In this document: in pieces, positions 44,421 through 52,334 of the stretch
Numbering within the stretch: the first letter of the stretch is position 1
Layout: each line of letters starts with the position of its first letter
Origin: Vicingaceae bacterium
GTDB lineage: Bacteria; Bacteroidota; Bacteroidia; Flavobacteriales_E; Vicingaceae
Assembly: GCA_026003395.1 (NCBI GenBank)
Contig: BPHE01000001.1
Coordinates: forward strand, 237,577-301,576
DNA length: 64,000 nt
Direction of reading: 5' to 3'
Notes under the pieces: generated by a model
The model's database searches: none
Told to the model about the DNA's origin: nothing
Seen by the model: the letters and a program-made list of their open reading frames with translations, nothing else
Made by a program: the position numbers and the translations under genes

Positions 44421-44731
44421 ATCTTCTCATAAATTTTCAAGCGGCAAAGAAAAGGAATTTTAAAGGATTATTAAAAAAGTATAGAAAGGAATTTGAAAAT
44501 CGGTGGAAATATTTTATCTTTTTTCACAATGTTTGGTTCAAAACACCGGAAGATTTAAAATAAAGATTTTATACTTCACAACTATTTACACTTCTATGCA
44601 AGTGCAATTATTAACAGAATTGAGCAAAAAAGAAATATTATAAGAAATTATAAAGAAGATTGACTTTACTAAGTAAATTGGGGAATCAAAGAAAATACTT
44701 CTCCTCAGTATCGAATCTTAAATACTAATAG
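44421..44731. other. Intergenic region between yidC and tRNA-Leu
   Basis: 311 AT-rich bases. It should hold the yidC promoter. I see no convincing ORF, RNA gene or terminator; short A-rich stretches only. Confidence 0.5.
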
Positions 44732-44818
44732 TACCCGGGGCGGGACTTGAACCCGCACGGCATTTTAATTGCCACAGGATTTTAAGTCCTGCGTGTCTAC
44801 CAATTCCACCACCCGGGC
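44732..44818 (-). tRNA. tRNA-Leu (anticodon TAA)
   Basis: 87-nt class II tRNA. Acceptor GCCCGGG pairs with CCCGGGT (one G-T pair). The anticodon stem CAGGA/TCCTG has loop CTTAAAA, and there is a long variable arm (TGGCA/TGCCG-type) and a T arm with GGGTTCAAGTCCC. CCA is not encoded. It lies downstream of tRNA-Gly on the same strand. Confidence 0.95.
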
Positions 44819-44840
44819 AACCACTTATCAACAAATAAAG

Positions 44841-44865
44841 AACAAGGCAGGTCGCCCTGCCTGTT
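44841..44865 (-). other. Hairpin between tRNA-Gly and tRNA-Leu
   Basis: AGGCAGG and CCTGCCT form a 7-bp stem around a 4-base loop, extended by three more pairs past a bulged A. It starts right after the tRNA-Gly CCA end and is followed on the minus strand by a T-rich stretch. It could be a weak terminator or a processing signal in a two-tRNA transcript. Confidence 0.55.
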
Positions 44866-44940
44866 GGAGCGGAAGACGGGACTCGAACCCGCGACCCTCA
44901 CCTTGGCAAGGTGATGCTCTACCAACTGAGCTACTTCCGC
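44865..44940 (-). tRNA. tRNA-Gly (anticodon GCC)
   Basis: 76 nt including an encoded CCA end. Acceptor GCGGAAG/CTTCCGC with discriminator T, anticodon stem TCACC/GGTGA with loop TTGCCAA, T arm CGGG/CCCG with TTCGAGT. The CCA overlaps the start of the following hairpin. Confidence 0.95.
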
Positions 44941-44986
44941 AAAAGTGTGGGCAAATTTATAAAAAATTTTTTTTCTGCTGCAAAAT

Positions 44987-47608
44987 TTAATTTTTTATTC
45001 CTACTTTATTTTTTATGTTGTTGAGAATGAGAAGTGCTTCAACAGGTGTCAGTGTGTTGATGTCGATTTTCATAAGCTCTTCCTTTATATCTTCCAACAC
45101 AGGATCATTCAATTGAAAAATACTTAACTGAAAATTTCCTGACGTCTCGACGCCTGAGCGGTCTTTGCCCGCATGCTTTTGCTCAAGTTCGTTTAAAATT
45201 TCATTGGCCCTGCGTACAACTGCTGCCGGTATTCCGGCCATTTTTGCCACGTGTATACCAAAACTATGCTCACTACCTCCGGGTTTAATTTTATGCAGAA
45301 AAATCACTTTAGCGTTCTCTTCTTTTATGGCAATCGAATAATTTTTGATTCGTTCGAATGATTTCTCCAGCTCATTGAGCTCATGATAATGAGTGGCAAA
45401 CAGCGTTTTGGCCTGTTTTCCGGGAGTATTGTGCAGATACTCGGCGATGGCACGGGCTATGCTGATACCATCAAAAGTGCTGGTACCCCTTCCAATTTCA
45501 TCTAAAATAACCAAACTACGTTGTGTTACATTATTTAAAATTCCCGCTGTTTCGATCATTTCGACCATAAATGTGGATTCACCTTTGGCAAGATTATCAG
45601 AAGCCCCAACTCTTGTAAACAATTTGTCAATTACGCCGATTTTAGCCATCGAAGCAGGTACATAACACCCCATCTGAGCCATCAAAACTATCAGAGCATT
45701 TTGTCTGAGATATGCCGATTTACCGGACATATTTGGGCCGGTGATAATGAGAATCTGTTGTTGTTTATTATCCAGACAAGTATCATTTGGAATGTAAGGA
45801 TGTTCGATAAATTGCTCGATTACAGGATGACGTCCGTCTTTGATATAAATTTCATACCCGTCATTCACTTCAGGTTTTACATATTTCTTATCCAATGCCA
45901 GCCATGCCGTTGATTGCGCCACATCCAGACGGGCGATTATTTGAGCATTGTTTAAAATCGCAGAAGTATAATTTTGCAGATATTCAACGAGTTGTTGATA
46001 GATTTCTTGTTCTAATAACAAAATTTTTTCTTCTGCACCCAATATTTTCGCTTCCCATTCTTTCAGCTCAGGAGTAATGTATCTTTCTGCCTGGGTTAGC
46101 GTTTGCTTTCGTTCCCAATCTGCAGGTACTTTATCTTTATGTGTATTACGGACTTCTATGTAATATCCAAACACATTGTTAAATGAAATTTTCAAATTCG
46201 GTATACCCGTACGTTTAATTTCATTTTGTTGTAATTCCGACAATTTTTGATGACTATTGCTAAGCAGCTCTCTCAATTCATCCAAACCTGCATTTACTCC
46301 TTTTGCAATAATTCCCGGCTTGTTGGTTACCGCCGGAGCATCTTCATCTATGGTCTGCAGTATTTTCCCGGCCACATCATCCAGAGGTATGATTTGTTTT
46401 AAAAGAGATTGAATACTTTCATCCGGTTGATTGTCTTGAATGAGCTGAATTATTTCTGGAATAATATTCAAGCTATTGGCAAGTATCAATAAATCTCTTG
46501 GATTGGCTTTTTGCACGGCTACCTTTGAAGTAATCCTCTCAATATCGGCTATGCGCGATAACATCTGTCGAATTTGATTCAACATGTCAATGTTATTGTA
46601 AAAGAAAGCGACCTGATTGAGGCGTTGATTGATTCTTTTCACATCTTTCAAAGGCAATAAGATTCTTTTCTTCAATAAACGGCTTCCCATGGGTGTCAAA
46701 GTATTGTCCATCACCGAAAATAACGAAGGACCATTGTTGAAATTGGATTGAACCAATTCAAGATTTCTTATTGTAAAATCGTCTAACCAAACATATTCCG
46801 AATGAGGTATGATTTGCAATTGGGAAATGTGTTTCAATGAATTTTGTTGCATCATTTTCACATAATGCAGAGCAGAACCGGCCGCCATGATCATAAGAGT
46901 GTCCTCTTCTATGCCGAAACCCTTTAGAGAAGCAGTTTCAAAGTGTTTTGTCAACAAATCATAAGTATAATCATGAGTATAAATCCATTCATCTTGAAAA
47001 TAGCAATAGTATTGGTCTCCAAACAACTGGTACCATTGTTGCTTAATATCTTTGCAAAGCAAAATTTCTTTAGGTTGGTAAACTGATAGCAAATGTTTCA
47101 AGTAATCCAACGATCCGGAAGCAGTTAAAAATTCTCCGGTAGAAACATCCAATAGGGCGATGCCGGCTGATTTTCTATCAAATACCACAGATGCAAGGAA
47201 ATTGTTGGATTTGTTTTCCAAAATTTGATCGGTAAATGCCACTCCCGGAGACACCAACTCGGTGACTCCACGTTTCACAATTTTTTTGGCCATTTTCGGG
47301 TCTTCCAATTGCTCGCAAATAGCCACTCTTTGACCTGCCTTGACTAACTTAGGCAGGTAATTGTCTAATGCATGATAAGGAAATCCTGCCAGCTCAACTT
47401 CTCCGGCAGAGCCGTTATGACGTTTGGTCAACACTATACCGAGAATTTTGGCCGTTTTAATGGCATCTTCTCCAAAAGTTTCATAAAAATCCCCTACTCT
47501 AAACAGTAAAATTGCTTCGGGATGTTTGGCCTTGATTGCAGCATATTGTTTCATTAAAGGTGTGTCGGCATTTTTTCCCGCATTTGTATGAGTATTTTTT
47601 TTGGCCAT
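44987..47608 (-). CDS. mutS: DNA mismatch repair protein MutS
   Basis: 873-aa mismatch sensor that recruits MutL. The mismatch-binding loop is visible (FRVGDFYETFGEDA, the FxE motif). The lever and clamp helices lie in the middle, and the ATPase has Walker A GPNMSGKSAYLRQ, Walker B LVILDEIGRGTSTFDG and the signature LAKGESTFMVEM. The C-terminal helix-turn-helix ends IKNKVGIKN. The ATG giving MAKKNTHT is preferred over an in-frame start 15 codons upstream. Monocistronic. Confidence 0.98.
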   Translation of the reverse strand: MAKKNTHTNAGKNADTPLMKQYAAIKAKHPEAILLFRVGDFYETFGEDAIKTAKILGIVLTKRHNGSAGEVELAGFPYHALDNYLPKLVKAGQRVAICEQLEDPKMAKKIVKRGVTELVSPGVAFTDQILENKSNNFLASVVFDRKSAGIALLDVSTGEFLTASGSLDYLKHLLSVYQPKEILLCKDIKQQWYQLFGDQYYCYFQDEWIYTHDYTYDLLTKHFETASLKGFGIEEDTLMIMAAGSALHYVKMMQQNSLKHISQLQIIPHSEYVWLDDFTIRNLELVQSNFNNGPSLFSVMDNTLTPMGSRLLKKRILLPLKDVKRINQRLNQVAFFYNNIDMLNQIRQMLSRIADIERITSKVAVQKANPRDLLILANSLNIIPEIIQLIQDNQPDESIQSLLKQIIPLDDVAGKILQTIDEDAPAVTNKPGIIAKGVNAGLDELRELLSNSHQKLSELQQNEIKRTGIPNLKISFNNVFGYYIEVRNTHKDKVPADWERKQTLTQAERYITPELKEWEAKILGAEEKILLLEQEIYQQLVEYLQNYTSAILNNAQIIARLDVAQSTAWLALDKKYVKPEVNDGYEIYIKDGRHPVIEQFIEHPYIPNDTCLDNKQQQILIITGPNMSGKSAYLRQNALIVLMAQMGCYVPASMAKIGVIDKLFTRVGASDNLAKGESTFMVEMIETAGILNNVTQRSLVILDEIGRGTSTFDGISIARAIAEYLHNTPGKQAKTLFATHYHELNELEKSFERIKNYSIAIKEENAKVIFLHKIKPGGSEHSFGIHVAKMAGIPAAVVRRANEILNELEQKHAGKDRSGVETSGNFQLSIFQLNDPVLEDIKEELMKIDINTLTPVEALLILNNIKNKVGIKN

Positions 47609-48330: not shown

Positions 48331-48361
48331 AAAAAAACCATCAAAGCAAAAACCTTGATGG
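48331..48361 (-). terminator. Terminator of the 77-aa lipoprotein gene
   Basis: CCATCAA and TTGATGG form a 7-bp stem (extendable past a mismatch). On the minus strand it is followed by an eight-T run. Confidence 0.75.
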
Positions 48362-48454: not shown

Positions 48455-48688
48455 TCAGGAAGTTGTGCAAGCACAATTTGCGCCATATTGCTTGGCTGTC
48501 TGGTCACAATTTTTCTCATAATTATCAATATCATCCGGAGTACCGCAAGCTTCACCAAAACTTTCGGTAGTGTCTTGTTGCGAAGTAGAACTTTTGTAAG
48601 TATACTGACAAGACGTACATTTTTTACATGCTTGTGAAAGCACCATGATTAAGGTCAATACAAATAAAAGTTTTGCTATAGTTTTCAT
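48455..48688 (-). CDS. Small Cys-rich lipoprotein (77 aa)
   Basis: 77-aa lipoprotein with lipobox Cys21 (SQAC). The mature part has seven Cys counting the lipidated one, beginning CKKCTSC and ending with CAC before TTS, separated by a Ser/Thr/Gln-rich loop. It resembles the 70-aa lipoprotein at 49.7 kb in order (CKK, clustered Cys, acidic middle, late Cys pair), although direct similarity is low. Disulfide or metal binding in the periplasm or at the surface is inferred. A terminator follows; it lies 54 bases downstream of the MauE/thioredoxin gene. Confidence 0.7.
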   Translation of the reverse strand: MKTIAKLLFVLTLIMVLSQACKKCTSCQYTYKSSTSQQDTTESFGEACGTPDDIDNYEKNCDQTAKQYGANCACTTS

Positions 48689-48742
48689 AATTTATGGATT
48701 TTGTGGTTTAGATTTATTCAAAACAAAAATAATACCAAATTT

Positions 48743-49651
48743 TCAATGTTCCGAAAGAAATTCTTTAATTCTTTTTTCATCCAAAGTTCGATAACTATGT
48801 TTTGCCACAATTACTCCTTCATTCAAAAAGTAAATGGCGGGTAGTTGATTCCCTCCTAAAGGGAAAAAAATATCCGGAGGAACTACTTGATAAGGATATT
48901 TGTTCGATTGAGTTTCTTCCCAAAATTCATTTAACTTACCTGATGCGTCCCAAAAAATATAATAAACCGGTAATTGCAAACCACTATTTTTTTGAAACAA
49001 CGTTATTTTTTTGGCTGCCATACGGCAAAACTTACATGAAGTACTGAAAAAACAAACGATTTTTTTTCCGCTTTTCAACACTTCAGGGGTTTCTCCATTA
49101 GAAAAATTTTCAAGAATATTCACCTGCATTGGTTGATTTAATTGTGCAGGAGGAAGCTCATACATCCTGTCGGGAGCAGCATAAATCCATGGAATTGAAA
49201 AACTTAAAAAAATTAATACAACTGTAACGTATTTAAATGCATTGTTAAGTTTAATTTCGTTTGAATTTCTTAACACAAAAAAAGTAAGAGCCATTAGGGC
49301 AATATTTTTCAATATACTTTCTAATGGTGAAAGTTTTACATATTCTCCCAAACATCCGCAATCGGCATTATTGCCCTTTGACATGAGCAAATAGAATAAA
49401 AAAATGGTCATTACCAATAAAAATGACTGGGTAAGATTATAGGTAAATTTATGAAAGAACGGTATCATAATTAAAAATCCAATACATAACTCGACAGAAA
49501 TGACCAATCTCGAAATGATCTCAACCGTATTCCACGATTCTAAATGAAAATAATCTAAAATCAAGATTTTAAAACTGTCCAAACTTTCGAGTTTCAACCA
49601 TGCGGATACAATAAAAAACAAGCCCAACAAAATTCTGACAATCTTTTTCAT
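48743..49651 (-). CDS. MauE/DoxX-like membrane protein fused to a thioredoxin-like domain
   Basis: 302-aa inner-membrane protein. The first 160 residues hold about five hydrophobic segments in the MauE/DoxX layout (MKKIVRILLGLFFIVSAWLKLESLD; the loop motif NADCGCLGEYV is typical of MauE-like redox proteins). Residues 170-302 are a periplasmic thioredoxin-like domain with CFFSTSCKFCRMAAKK (CxxC) and the cis-Pro region LPAIYFL. It probably passes electrons or disulfides across the membrane. Flanked on both sides by Cys-rich lipoprotein genes, which could be clients. Preceded by a terminator, so it needs its own promoter. Confidence 0.82.
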   Translation of the reverse strand: MKKIVRILLGLFFIVSAWLKLESLDSFKILILDYFHLESWNTVEIISRLVISVELCIGFLIMIPFFHKFTYNLTQSFLLVMTIFLFYLLMSKGNNADCGCLGEYVKLSPLESILKNIALMALTFFVLRNSNEIKLNNAFKYVTVVLIFLSFSIPWIYAAPDRMYELPPAQLNQPMQVNILENFSNGETPEVLKSGKKIVCFFSTSCKFCRMAAKKITLFQKNSGLQLPVYYIFWDASGKLNEFWEETQSNKYPYQVVPPDIFFPLGGNQLPAIYFLNEGVIVAKHSYRTLDEKRIKEFLSEH

Positions 49652-49670
49652 CTTCCTAAATTATAGATAA

Positions 49671-49700
49671 AAAAAGGGGAGATAAATCTCCCCTTTTTTT
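49671..49700. terminator. Strong bidirectional terminator
   Basis: GGGGAGA/TCTCCCC stem with a 4-base loop, flanked by A5 and T7 runs. It ends the transcript of the 70-aa lipoprotein gene on the minus strand. Confidence 0.88.
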
Positions 49701-49716
49701 CAAGTTTATCAAAAAA

Positions 49717-49929
49717 TTATTTCAACTCACAAGAGGTAGTACAACCTCCACTTGAGGTTTGTGATTCATCACAACGCTCTTGAGCATCTTTTTTTGTTTC
49801 TTTTTTAGTTTCTTGCACACATACCTTTCCTCCTCCACAATCAGCACAACATTCACATGTCCATTCTTTCTTGCAAGAAGTTAAAGTTGCAACAAAAGCA
49901 ACTGCTGCGATAATAAATAATTTTTTCAT
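49717..49929 (-). CDS. Small Cys-rich lipoprotein (70 aa)
   Basis: 70-aa lipoprotein with lipobox Cys19 (LTSC). Nine Cys in the mature protein: lipid Cys, then CECCADC, VC, RC and the late GGC and TSC. A Lys/Glu stretch (ETKKETKKDAQERC) lies in the middle. The cluster CECCADCGGG looks able to bind a metal or form several disulfides; that is inference. Start at MKKLFII; an upstream extension has no support. It has its own two-element promoter and its own terminator. Confidence 0.75.
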   Translation of the reverse strand: MKKLFIIAAVAFVATLTSCKKEWTCECCADCGGGKVCVQETKKETKKDAQERCDESQTSSGGCTTSCELK

Positions 49930-49963
49930 AGTTTTAAAATTTAACAGGTTAAACAATAATTTT

Positions 49964-49993
49964 CAAATATAAAATAACTTTTTTAAATACAAA
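49964..49993 (-). promoter_or_regulatory. Promoter of the 70-aa Cys-rich lipoprotein
   Basis: On the minus strand TTTG (49993-49990), 18 bases, then TATATTTG (49971-49964). Spacing is identical to that of the DUF2795 promoter. It falls in the gap after the 167-aa lipoprotein gene. Confidence 0.65.
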
Positions 49994-49996
49994 AAA

Positions 49997-50500
49997 TTAT
50001 TTTTCTAAACTTATTACAATAGTTTTCCCATCTGCAGTAGTATATTCCAAAACAAATTTATTTTTTTTCTTTTCTTTTACATTTACTTCAAATTCTTTTT
50101 CAACTTTTGAAGAAATATTGGGTAATGTTCCATAATCGACTTTAAACAATATTTTACCACCTTTCTTTACTTCATAAACAAATGGAAAAACTATACCACT
50201 GGCAACATTGTTTTTTTCATATTGATCATAGGTAAAATACATTCCTCTCATATGCCCATAACAATATTTTTGGTCGTTTAATTCATATTTGTCACAACCG
50301 TTAAAAGTAATTTGACGAATAGAAGTAATATCTAAAGAGTCGGTATTTCTTAAAGTATCATCTAAATTAATCGGGTTTCCATCAACTGTCATTTCTTTTA
50401 CCGTCCATTCACCAACGATTCTTTTATTGATTGTAGTCTTTTTACAAGAAAACACAAAAAAAGCAAAAGCAGATAAAGCAATAAATACAATTTTTTTCAT
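49997..50500 (-). CDS. Lipocalin-like lipoprotein
   Basis: 167-aa lipoprotein with lipobox Cys19 (VFSC). The mature start TINKRIVGEWTVKEMTVDG is typical of small lipocalin-like Bacteroidota lipoproteins, followed by alternating strands (QITFNGCDKYEL, KKGGKILFKVDYG, KFVLEYTTADGK). Two further Cys (NGCDKY and KYCYGH) could form a disulfide. Function unknown. First of four small envelope genes on this strand. Confidence 0.7.
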   Translation of the reverse strand: MKKIVFIALSAFAFFVFSCKKTTINKRIVGEWTVKEMTVDGNPINLDDTLRNTDSLDITSIRQITFNGCDKYELNDQKYCYGHMRGMYFTYDQYEKNNVASGIVFPFVYEVKKGGKILFKVDYGTLPNISSKVEKEFEVNVKEKKKNKFVLEYTTADGKTIVISLEK

Positions 50501-50606: not shown

Positions 50607-52334
50607 TTAATTTACAGCTGCTTGAAACTCAGAATTATTTCTGAATTTGATAAATTCGGCGTCGTCTTTAGCTTTTGCTTTCAAGGATGGATCTTTAGAA
50701 ACTGCATTTTTAAGATTGCTTACCAACATATCTGCATTATTCATTCTGGCAGCAGCAATTGCTTTTAAATAATAACCCATTGCAGAATCTTTATCGGGAG
50801 AGTTGTCTATAGTTTTAACAGCGCCATCCGGGTTACCATTGAGAAGTTGAGCCAATGCGGCATTGAAAGATGAACTACCGGAAAAACTGCTTACAGCTGA
50901 AGCATAATCCCCCCAGATGATATAAATAATTCCTTTGTTATAATTTACTTCCGGACCGGCACCTGCGGCTGCATCATAATATTCCATGGCTTTTTTCAAA
51001 TTGCCTGATTTTCTTTCACAAACTCCTAAATTGTTTTTCACAATAGGATTATTGGGCTTCAAAGTATTGGCTTTTTCAAATTGGGCTTTTGCATCATTTA
51101 TTTTGTTTTGCATCACATATACATAACCTAAATTGTTGGGGCCTCTCCAATCATTTGGATACACTTCAATTACTTTTTTATAGATTCTTTCTTTTTCATT
51201 TAAGTCATTGGTCACATAAGCAATGTGAAGTAATTCGTCTATAGTCAATGCATTGGGATTGGTTTTGCTTAATTCCATGATTTCGTTATCAGGACGGCTT
51301 AAGCTATCAGCCAAAATCCAAATTTCACTTCTACGAAGTTGGGGAAGAATTTTATCTTTCAACTCTTTGAAAGTTTCTGCCATGTTGCGAATTTCTTCTT
51401 CGCGTTTATTTACATCAGAATACATTTCCAGAACACGAATAATTAAATCTTTGTCTTTGATGTTTGAGGCTTGCATAAGTTTTTTGAAACCTTCCCAATC
51501 TTCACCTTTACCGGTTGCAGTGTAGAATCCGGGCTCAGTTGCTTTGGCAACTTTTTCTTTCTTCAAAACATCCACGGCAAATTTGGCTCCATGTTCGGCA
51601 CGTTGATTTGCAAGATTCTCGTTTCTTGACAATTCCCCTTCAGGCGATGCATATGCCTCTGTTTTCACTCCTTTTATCGTGGTTCTGGTTTGAGTAGCCA
51701 ATCTTTTGGCATTTTCTTTCATGGACTTGATATCCGGTTTATTCAAATCACCACTTACGGGAGTGGTTGTATTAACAATATAATGAATATCGGCATAAAT
51801 ACTGATTTGATGGGAAGGTTTGAACTCATCTTTCCCCAAAATAGGTTTATCATCTGATTTTACCAATTTGGGTGTGATAATAGTTCCATCTGCAACTTTC
51901 ACAGGATCAAACTTCTTGCTTTTGGATTTGTAGAATCCTTCAAGATTTAGAAACAACTCGGCTTTTTCCATTCCGGGTTGGTAAGGAATTTTTGCTGTAT
52001 GTGAAAATTTGCCCCCTTCGGCATATTTAATCACAATCCCTTCTCCTTCAACAGATTCTCCTTTCAAAGTTACCGGCGCAAAATTGGTTTCCCCACCATT
52101 GTATTTTAAGGTAGGTGTAATTACTCCTTTCACTTTTTTATGAAAATACTTTGTAGGAAAACTTCCGGAAAGATTCATGACGATAGTATCCCCGTGCATC
52201 TCCAAGGGATTTGGCGTCACAGTATAATTAACCTCATTGGCTCTTTTAGCCATTTTCTTGAGTGCATTACATGCCACAAGGCTTCCGGCCGCCAACACAA
52301 TTAAAGAAGCATTTCGTAAATTTCTATAGTTCAT
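50607..52334 (-). CDS. Lipoprotein with internal OmpA-like segment and C-terminal TPRs
   Basis: 575-aa lipoprotein, lipobox Cys22 (LVAC). Residues 30-180 are beta-rich. Residues 180-290 hold an OmpA-like pattern (ISIYADIHYIV, then EAYASPEGELSRNENLANQRAEHGAKFAVDVL). Residues 370-575 are TPR-like helices (RGPNNLGYVYVMQNKINDAKAQFEKANTLKPNNP). An outer-membrane-attached scaffold that also touches peptidoglycan is plausible. Placing the OmpA part in the middle is unusual and is shared with the broken gene at 5.3-7.7 kb. Own terminator; single gene. Confidence 0.82.
   Translation of the reverse strand: MNYRNLRNASLIVLAAGSLVACNALKKMAKRANEVNYTVTPNPLEMHGDTIVMNLSGSFPTKYFHKKVKGVITPTLKYNGGETNFAPVTLKGESVEGEGIVIKYAEGGKFSHTAKIPYQPGMEKAELFLNLEGFYKSKSKKFDPVKVADGTIITPKLVKSDDKPILGKDEFKPSHQISIYADIHYIVNTTTPVSGDLNKPDIKSMKENAKRLATQTRTTIKGVKTEAYASPEGELSRNENLANQRAEHGAKFAVDVLKKEKVAKATEPGFYTATGKGEDWEGFKKLMQASNIKDKDLIIRVLEMYSDVNKREEEIRNMAETFKELKDKILPQLRRSEIWILADSLSRPDNEIMELSKTNPNALTIDELLHIAYVTNDLNEKERIYKKVIEVYPNDWRGPNNLGYVYVMQNKINDAKAQFEKANTLKPNNPIVKNNLGVCERKSGNLKKAMEYYDAAAGAGPEVNYNKGIIYIIWGDYASAVSSFSGSSSFNAALAQLLNGNPDGAVKTIDNSPDKDSAMGYYLKAIAAARMNNADMLVSNLKNAVSKDPSLKAKAKDDAEFIKFRNNSEFQAAVN

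Follow-up and report, generated by a model that had tools for sequence, protein, structure and literature searches.

Within a 64,000-nucleotide stretch of a Vicingaceae genome (contig BPHE01000001.1; hereafter the window), four consecutive minus-strand genes encode a lipocalin-like lipoprotein, two very small cysteine-rich lipoproteins (type A and type B) and, between these two, a MauE-like membrane protein fused to a thioredoxin domain (MauE-Trx). The locus raises the question of whether the fusion protein serves the cysteines of its small neighbors, as proposed in the initial annotation, which had it handle the disulfides of the lipoproteins or a metal site in them. All four open reading frames were found at 48455–50500, where that annotation had placed them, and the cysteine counts, the lipoboxes and the CGC and CxxC motifs were as it described. 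The features of the locus, all on the minus strand, are as follows:

49997..50500, minus strand: 167-aa lipocalin-like lipoprotein
49964..49993, minus strand: possible promoter of the Bacteroidetes type (TTTG-N18-TATATTTG) in front of the type A gene
49717..49929, minus strand: type A Cys-rich lipoprotein, 70 aa, nine Cys; C19 (lipid), C25, C27, C53 and C67 invariant, extra pairs C28+C37 and C31+C63
49676..49693, minus strand: terminator-like hairpin GGGGAGA-TTTA-TCTCCCC then T7, in the gap between type A and MauE-Trx
48743..49651, minus strand: MauE-Trx, 302 aa; MauE part with CGC at 98–100, then a ResA/TlpA-like thioredoxin domain with CKFC at 206–209 and P271
48455..48688, minus strand: type B Cys-rich lipoprotein, 77 aa, seven Cys, with a CKKCxxC start; immediately downstream of MauE-Trx
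48338..48361, minus strand: terminator-like hairpin downstream of the type B gene

Both small lipoproteins start with a signal peptide and a lipobox (LTSC and SQAC), the lipobox Cys being invariant. The lipocalin-like label of the 167-aa protein found weak support (Lipocalin_4, E=0.019, below the cut-off); outside the window, the protein adjoins the cassette in genus g12 alone (loci L055 and L056). It was not retained as a component and is judged a bystander. The 575-aa TPR/OmpA-like lipoprotein encoded at 50607–52334 was also rejected as a component: it is syntenic in the window’s family and some others, and elsewhere it does not stand beside the cassette. Its synteny with the cassette extends to families f25 and f31, and it has a weak match to DUF3868. 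Elsewhere in the window, two tRNA genes (Leu, Gly) at 44731–44940 on the minus strand overlap a listed ORF (44769–44990), which is spurious because the tRNA genes underlie it.

The reading of the three core genes that we consider probable is a dedicated envelope disulfide module, in which MauE-Trx would be a one-chain oxidase of the MauE/MauD or DsbB/DsbA kind for the lipoproteins. The membrane part of the fusion is indeed MauE-like, as initially annotated: PF07291 covers residues 4–127 with 64.9 bits against a cut-off of 27, and it matches all 52 of 52 relatives. In the AlphaFold model (mean pLDDT 91.7), membrane helices are followed by a thioredoxin domain, whose best structural matches in the PDB are ResA, TlpA and DsbE-type proteins; this part of the annotation is supported by structure, a Pfam hit for thioredoxin being absent from the window protein. 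Read by the positive-inside rule, the helices would place both the CGC pair and the thioredoxin domain in the periplasm. An alignment of 52 diverse relatives has C98, C100, C206, C209 and P271 invariant, the last presumably at the cis-Pro position. CGC and CxxC occur in 80 of 80 MauE-Trx loci, although the CGC count is shaped partly by the search design, with CGC in one search pattern. The thioredoxin motif is mostly CPHC, as in DsbA, whereas the window’s own is CKFC, which counts against a disulfide oxidase. So does the nearness of the fold to ResA and TlpA, proteins that are mostly reductants.

The grouping of the genes is not a matter of chance: the neighborhood recurs in many other genomes. 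Scanning bacterial genomes for MauE-Trx gave 80 loci, all from Bacteroidota wherever the phylum or a lower group was named. One to five co-oriented small lipoproteins lay directly upstream in about 67 of the 80, as found without a family model, by searching for all small ORFs that have a lipobox and four or more Cys; several of the remaining loci end at contig edges. Elsewhere within the 80 loci, no further member of the family was found. The type A pattern reads lipid Cys-KK-x-x-x-C-x-C...C...C. Neighbors of the pair fall into 31 upstream and 28 downstream clusters, a few of the upstream ones being long lipoproteins themselves; the flanking genes thus differ widely, and the pair is kept while its neighborhood changes. 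As a control, BT_3928-type MauE proteins (354–423 aa, nearly all without CxxC in the C-terminal part) had lipoprotein neighbors in 0 of 15 loci. Both MauE-Trx and the lipoproteins occur in genus g56, mostly unlinked, which counts against the disulfide module.

At the level of genomes, full-length MauE-Trx was found in 75 of 395 Bacteroidia genomes. Type A lipoproteins (E≤1e-6) occur in 69 of these 75 versus 30 of the 320 without the fusion (Fisher p about 1e-45, which overstates independence because the genomes are related), which answers the co-occurrence test proposed in the initial annotation; at E≤1e-3, 74 of the 75 Bacteroidia genomes with MauE-Trx have one. The dependence within Bacteroidia is one-sided, in that MauE-Trx genomes nearly all carry a type A lipoprotein, and this pattern fits a redox enzyme with these lipoproteins among its clients. 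The same annotation had held that lipoproteins common without the fusion would speak against the link, and this is partly so: the 70-aa family in the 30 genomes without MauE-Trx counts against the disulfide module, and genomes with MauE-Trx have dispersed copies as well. On the gene level, among the 150 type A genes with the strongest matches, 61 have MauE-Trx no more than 2.5 kb away, and 59 of them stand upstream of it on the same strand; such proximity counts are biased because most of the sequences behind the type A model were themselves MauE-Trx neighbors, the genome-level counts being less affected. In four genomes of another class, MauE-Trx is present and type A lipoproteins were not found, another point against the disulfide module; as a partnership, the pair is thus a feature of Bacteroidia, and the fusion itself is older or more widespread. 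The fusion at loci L238, L239 and L240, from another class of the phylum and without type A lipoproteins, is about 295 aa long. Type A genes, often in tandem arrays, also stand far from any MauE-Trx gene at loci L186, L187 and L188 of genome G338 and L194 of G329; copies reach up to 12 per genome there, and their neighbors give no clear functional hint.

If the fusion acts on the lipoproteins, their cysteines should be conserved, as the initial annotation had also expected. In 82 aligned type A relatives, a set gathered with a Cys-pattern filter, the lipid Cys and four others are invariant. The mature chains of both types have an odd number of cysteines in 209 of 212 distinct cases (184 with five, 24 with seven, one with nine), that is, the lipidated Cys plus an even remainder; by inspection, the three even chains were a spurious ORF, a MauE-Trx fragment and a chain with a mis-set lipobox. 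Moreover, C28+C37 occurs without C31+C63 in genus g12, and C31+C63 without C28+C37 in genome G060. Since the extra cysteines are gained and lost in separable pairs, disulfides are expected and not one metal site. The predicted type A fold is beta-beta-alpha-beta (pLDDT of the mature part about 90), and by strand register residues 28 and 37 lie opposite each other across its first hairpin. Overall, the sequence pattern points to disulfides rather than metal sites in the lipoproteins.

The two small lipoproteins had been viewed as alike because of a shared order of cysteines. They are better treated as separate: alignment of the type A profile with that of type B is limited to the signal peptide and CKK-x-x-C, and a single family was given up in favor of two. 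Of 71 genes found with the type B profile (E≤1e-8), 26 are no more than 3 kb from MauE-Trx; they belong to 13 genomes from families f1, f3 and f5, and eight of these genomes were absent from the query alignment. The strongest relatives are directly downstream of MauE-Trx in five family-f5 genomes, as in the window, and in family f3 type B stands upstream of MauE-Trx on the opposite strand. Type B also occurs alone, without MauE-Trx. At locus L226 (1621–2745), the TPR/OmpA lipoprotein and TrmH flank four tandem seven-Cys type B genes, with MauE-Trx absent from this interval; the array sits at the syntenic site of MauE-Trx and counts against the disulfide module, the presumed clients here occurring naturally in the enzyme’s absence.

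Neither the window lipoproteins nor typical members matched a Pfam or NCBIfam model over the cut-off, and scans of both collections with the lipoprotein alignments gave weak or sporadic matches only. The predicted type A fold had no significant match and no relative in the PDB. Identity with the PG1828 family (NF050142), another small Bacteroidota lipoprotein with a similar signal peptide and lipobox, was rejected, the likeness lying mainly in the signal peptide; the match, which does not exceed 28 bits (cut-off 50), is confined to the N-terminal part. By eye, the surface-export signal K-(D/E)2 (PMC5080379) fits the CSKEEC and CSKDEC members of the window’s family, but not the common CKKDxxC.

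The type A and MauE-Trx genes are separated by 65 nt, and the T-tract of the hairpin in this gap ends 11 nt before the MauE-Trx start, probably too near for a separate promoter in between. A hairpin of this kind occupies the junction in 59 of 65 loci, where 15 would be expected from shuffles; among control gaps it was seen in 32 of 110, and among the gaps that separate tandem lipoproteins in 14 of 48. Across many families, it sits at nearly the same place, mostly 15–25 nt past the stop codon of the last lipoprotein gene, with varying sequence. Because it is kept at the same junction, it is read as an attenuator, by which less enzyme than lipoprotein would be made, and not as proof of separate units. 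The internal terminators from which it had been concluded that the genes are not one operon come down, inside the three-gene core, to this single terminator-like hairpin. For the core genes that conclusion is probably wrong, and the conserved hairpin suggests one attenuated operon, in which MauE-Trx would be transcribed by read-through. The hairpin past the type B gene is likely the end of the transcription unit. The putative promoter upstream of the type A gene is suggestive only, the Bacteroidetes-type motif having 16 matches in the window versus 9.7 expected.

Searches of the window genome (97.7% complete) gave no match to DsbB (PF02600), DsbA (PF01323) or VKOR (PF07884), control genomes being matched in these searches, and the fusion itself matches MauE; unrecognized oxidases in this genome are possible. 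VKOR occurs in 27 of the 395 Bacteroidia genomes, only one of which has MauE-Trx (1/75; Fisher p 0.04). A search of the window genome for the methylamine dehydrogenase light chain gave no match, and the control set gave none either.

Several known systems resemble the cassette in part. In the maturation of methylamine dehydrogenase in Paracoccus, a MauE-family membrane protein is needed together with MauD, which is thioredoxin-like, whereas here MauE and thioredoxin form one chain and the partners are lipoproteins of other families. With DsbB/DsbA and the VKOR-Trx fusions, the cassette shares a membrane Cys-pair relay and a periplasmic thioredoxin-fold CxxC, joined in one chain in VKOR-Trx and with CPHC as in DsbA, but its membrane part is MauE and not DsbB or VKOR. 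The BT_3928 family (NF045576) shares the N-terminal MauE region (75.7 bits over residues 3–152 of the fusion), but this score lies below the 250-bit cut-off and the fusion falls outside that family. The closest published idea concerns the candidate RiPP clusters detected by decRiPPter in Streptomyces, where mauE lies beside a gene for a small Cys-rich precursor with at least eight Cys (PMC7794033); the adjacency is the same, but the products here are lipoproteins with four, six or eight non-lipid Cys from another phylum, Bacteroidota. With reference to van der Palen 1997, the same paper mentions a speculation in favor of a disulfide module, namely that MauE makes the disulfides of the small Cys-rich beta-subunit of methylamine dehydrogenase (PMC7794033). 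A pairing of MauE-Trx with Cys-rich lipoproteins in Bacteroidota was not found in the mainly open-licence literature searched.

Taken as a disulfide module, the cassette would work as follows. Type A and type B would be exported as small disulfide-bonded domains with one lipidated Cys and at least two intramolecular disulfides. For the type A protein of the window, the predicted bonds are C28–C37 and C31–C63, and C25, C27, C53 and C67 would pair with one another. The periplasmic thioredoxin domain (CxxC, usually CPHC) would take electrons from the lipoprotein cysteines, forming or correcting their disulfides, and would hand them on, by way of the CGC in the MauE part, to a membrane acceptor, probably quinone, a route also suggested for MauE together with MauD. 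With the type A gene placed first and the attenuator-like hairpin after it, the client would be made in excess over the enzyme. Of the initial proposal, the presumed handling of lipoprotein disulfides is the part best supported, on the basis of sequence and models, and the lipocalin-like gene falls outside it.

Electrons might also flow the other way. MauE-Trx would then send them outward like TlpA or ResA, keeping or making the lipoprotein cysteines reduced so that a metal (Cu, Zn or Fe-S) can be loaded, and the lipoproteins would be metal carriers. The thioredoxin domain is closest to ResA/TlpA, and the four invariant non-lipid cysteines, with their C-x-C, could bind a metal. However, extra cysteines always come by twos as separable pairs, the motif is mostly CPHC, and no metal transporter or metalloenzyme stood consistently beside the cassette in the loci inspected, which makes this reductive role unlikely. 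We give somewhat less credence still to the lipoproteins as redox carriers that relay electrons from the inner-membrane MauE-Trx to outer-membrane or surface targets: the tight linkage, the lipid anchor and the many copies per genome would suit such a relay, but type A has no conserved CxxC, its loops are long and variable, and orphan copies exist in enzyme-less genomes.

The tandem, divergent arrays recall bacteriocin- or RiPP-like precursors, from which secreted Cys-rich peptides would be matured by MauE-Trx, with the Streptomyces clusters as a precedent (PMC7794033). Every member retained in the set nevertheless has the lipobox (partly a search criterion), a C-terminal C-x-[LIVM]-[KNEDQ] is largely conserved, and no exporter, protease or immunity gene was noticed beside the arrays, so such peptides seem very improbable. 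Least credible is a locus shared by descent with no functional link. The stretch SppA-HPPK-TPR lipoprotein-cassette-TrmH-MutS is syntenic throughout the window’s family, as descent would have it, but the pair is kept in many unrelated neighborhoods and the genome-level association persists even when the genes are unlinked, which largely refutes this explanation.

The disulfide module itself can be taken further, to a tentative and rather doubtful extension, in which MauE-Trx would serve much of the VKOR-less Bacteroidia as their general disulfide-forming enzyme, with both lipoprotein families as its most abundant dedicated clients and with its own attenuated client–enzyme operon.

Overall, the cassette is real and conserved, and it is undescribed in the sources searched: a common Bacteroidota arrangement of one to five tiny Cys-rich lipoproteins with a membrane protein resembling a disulfide-bond maker. 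It defines two families of small Cys-rich lipoproteins that many Bacteroidia carry and that no Pfam or NCBIfam model covers, together with a conserved attenuator-like element. With DsbA, DsbB and VKOR missing from the matches in the window genome and VKOR sparse among Bacteroidia, the question raised is by which route envelope disulfides are formed in many of these bacteria. By pointing to a candidate enzyme and, with it, the likely substrates, the cassette makes this question directly testable.
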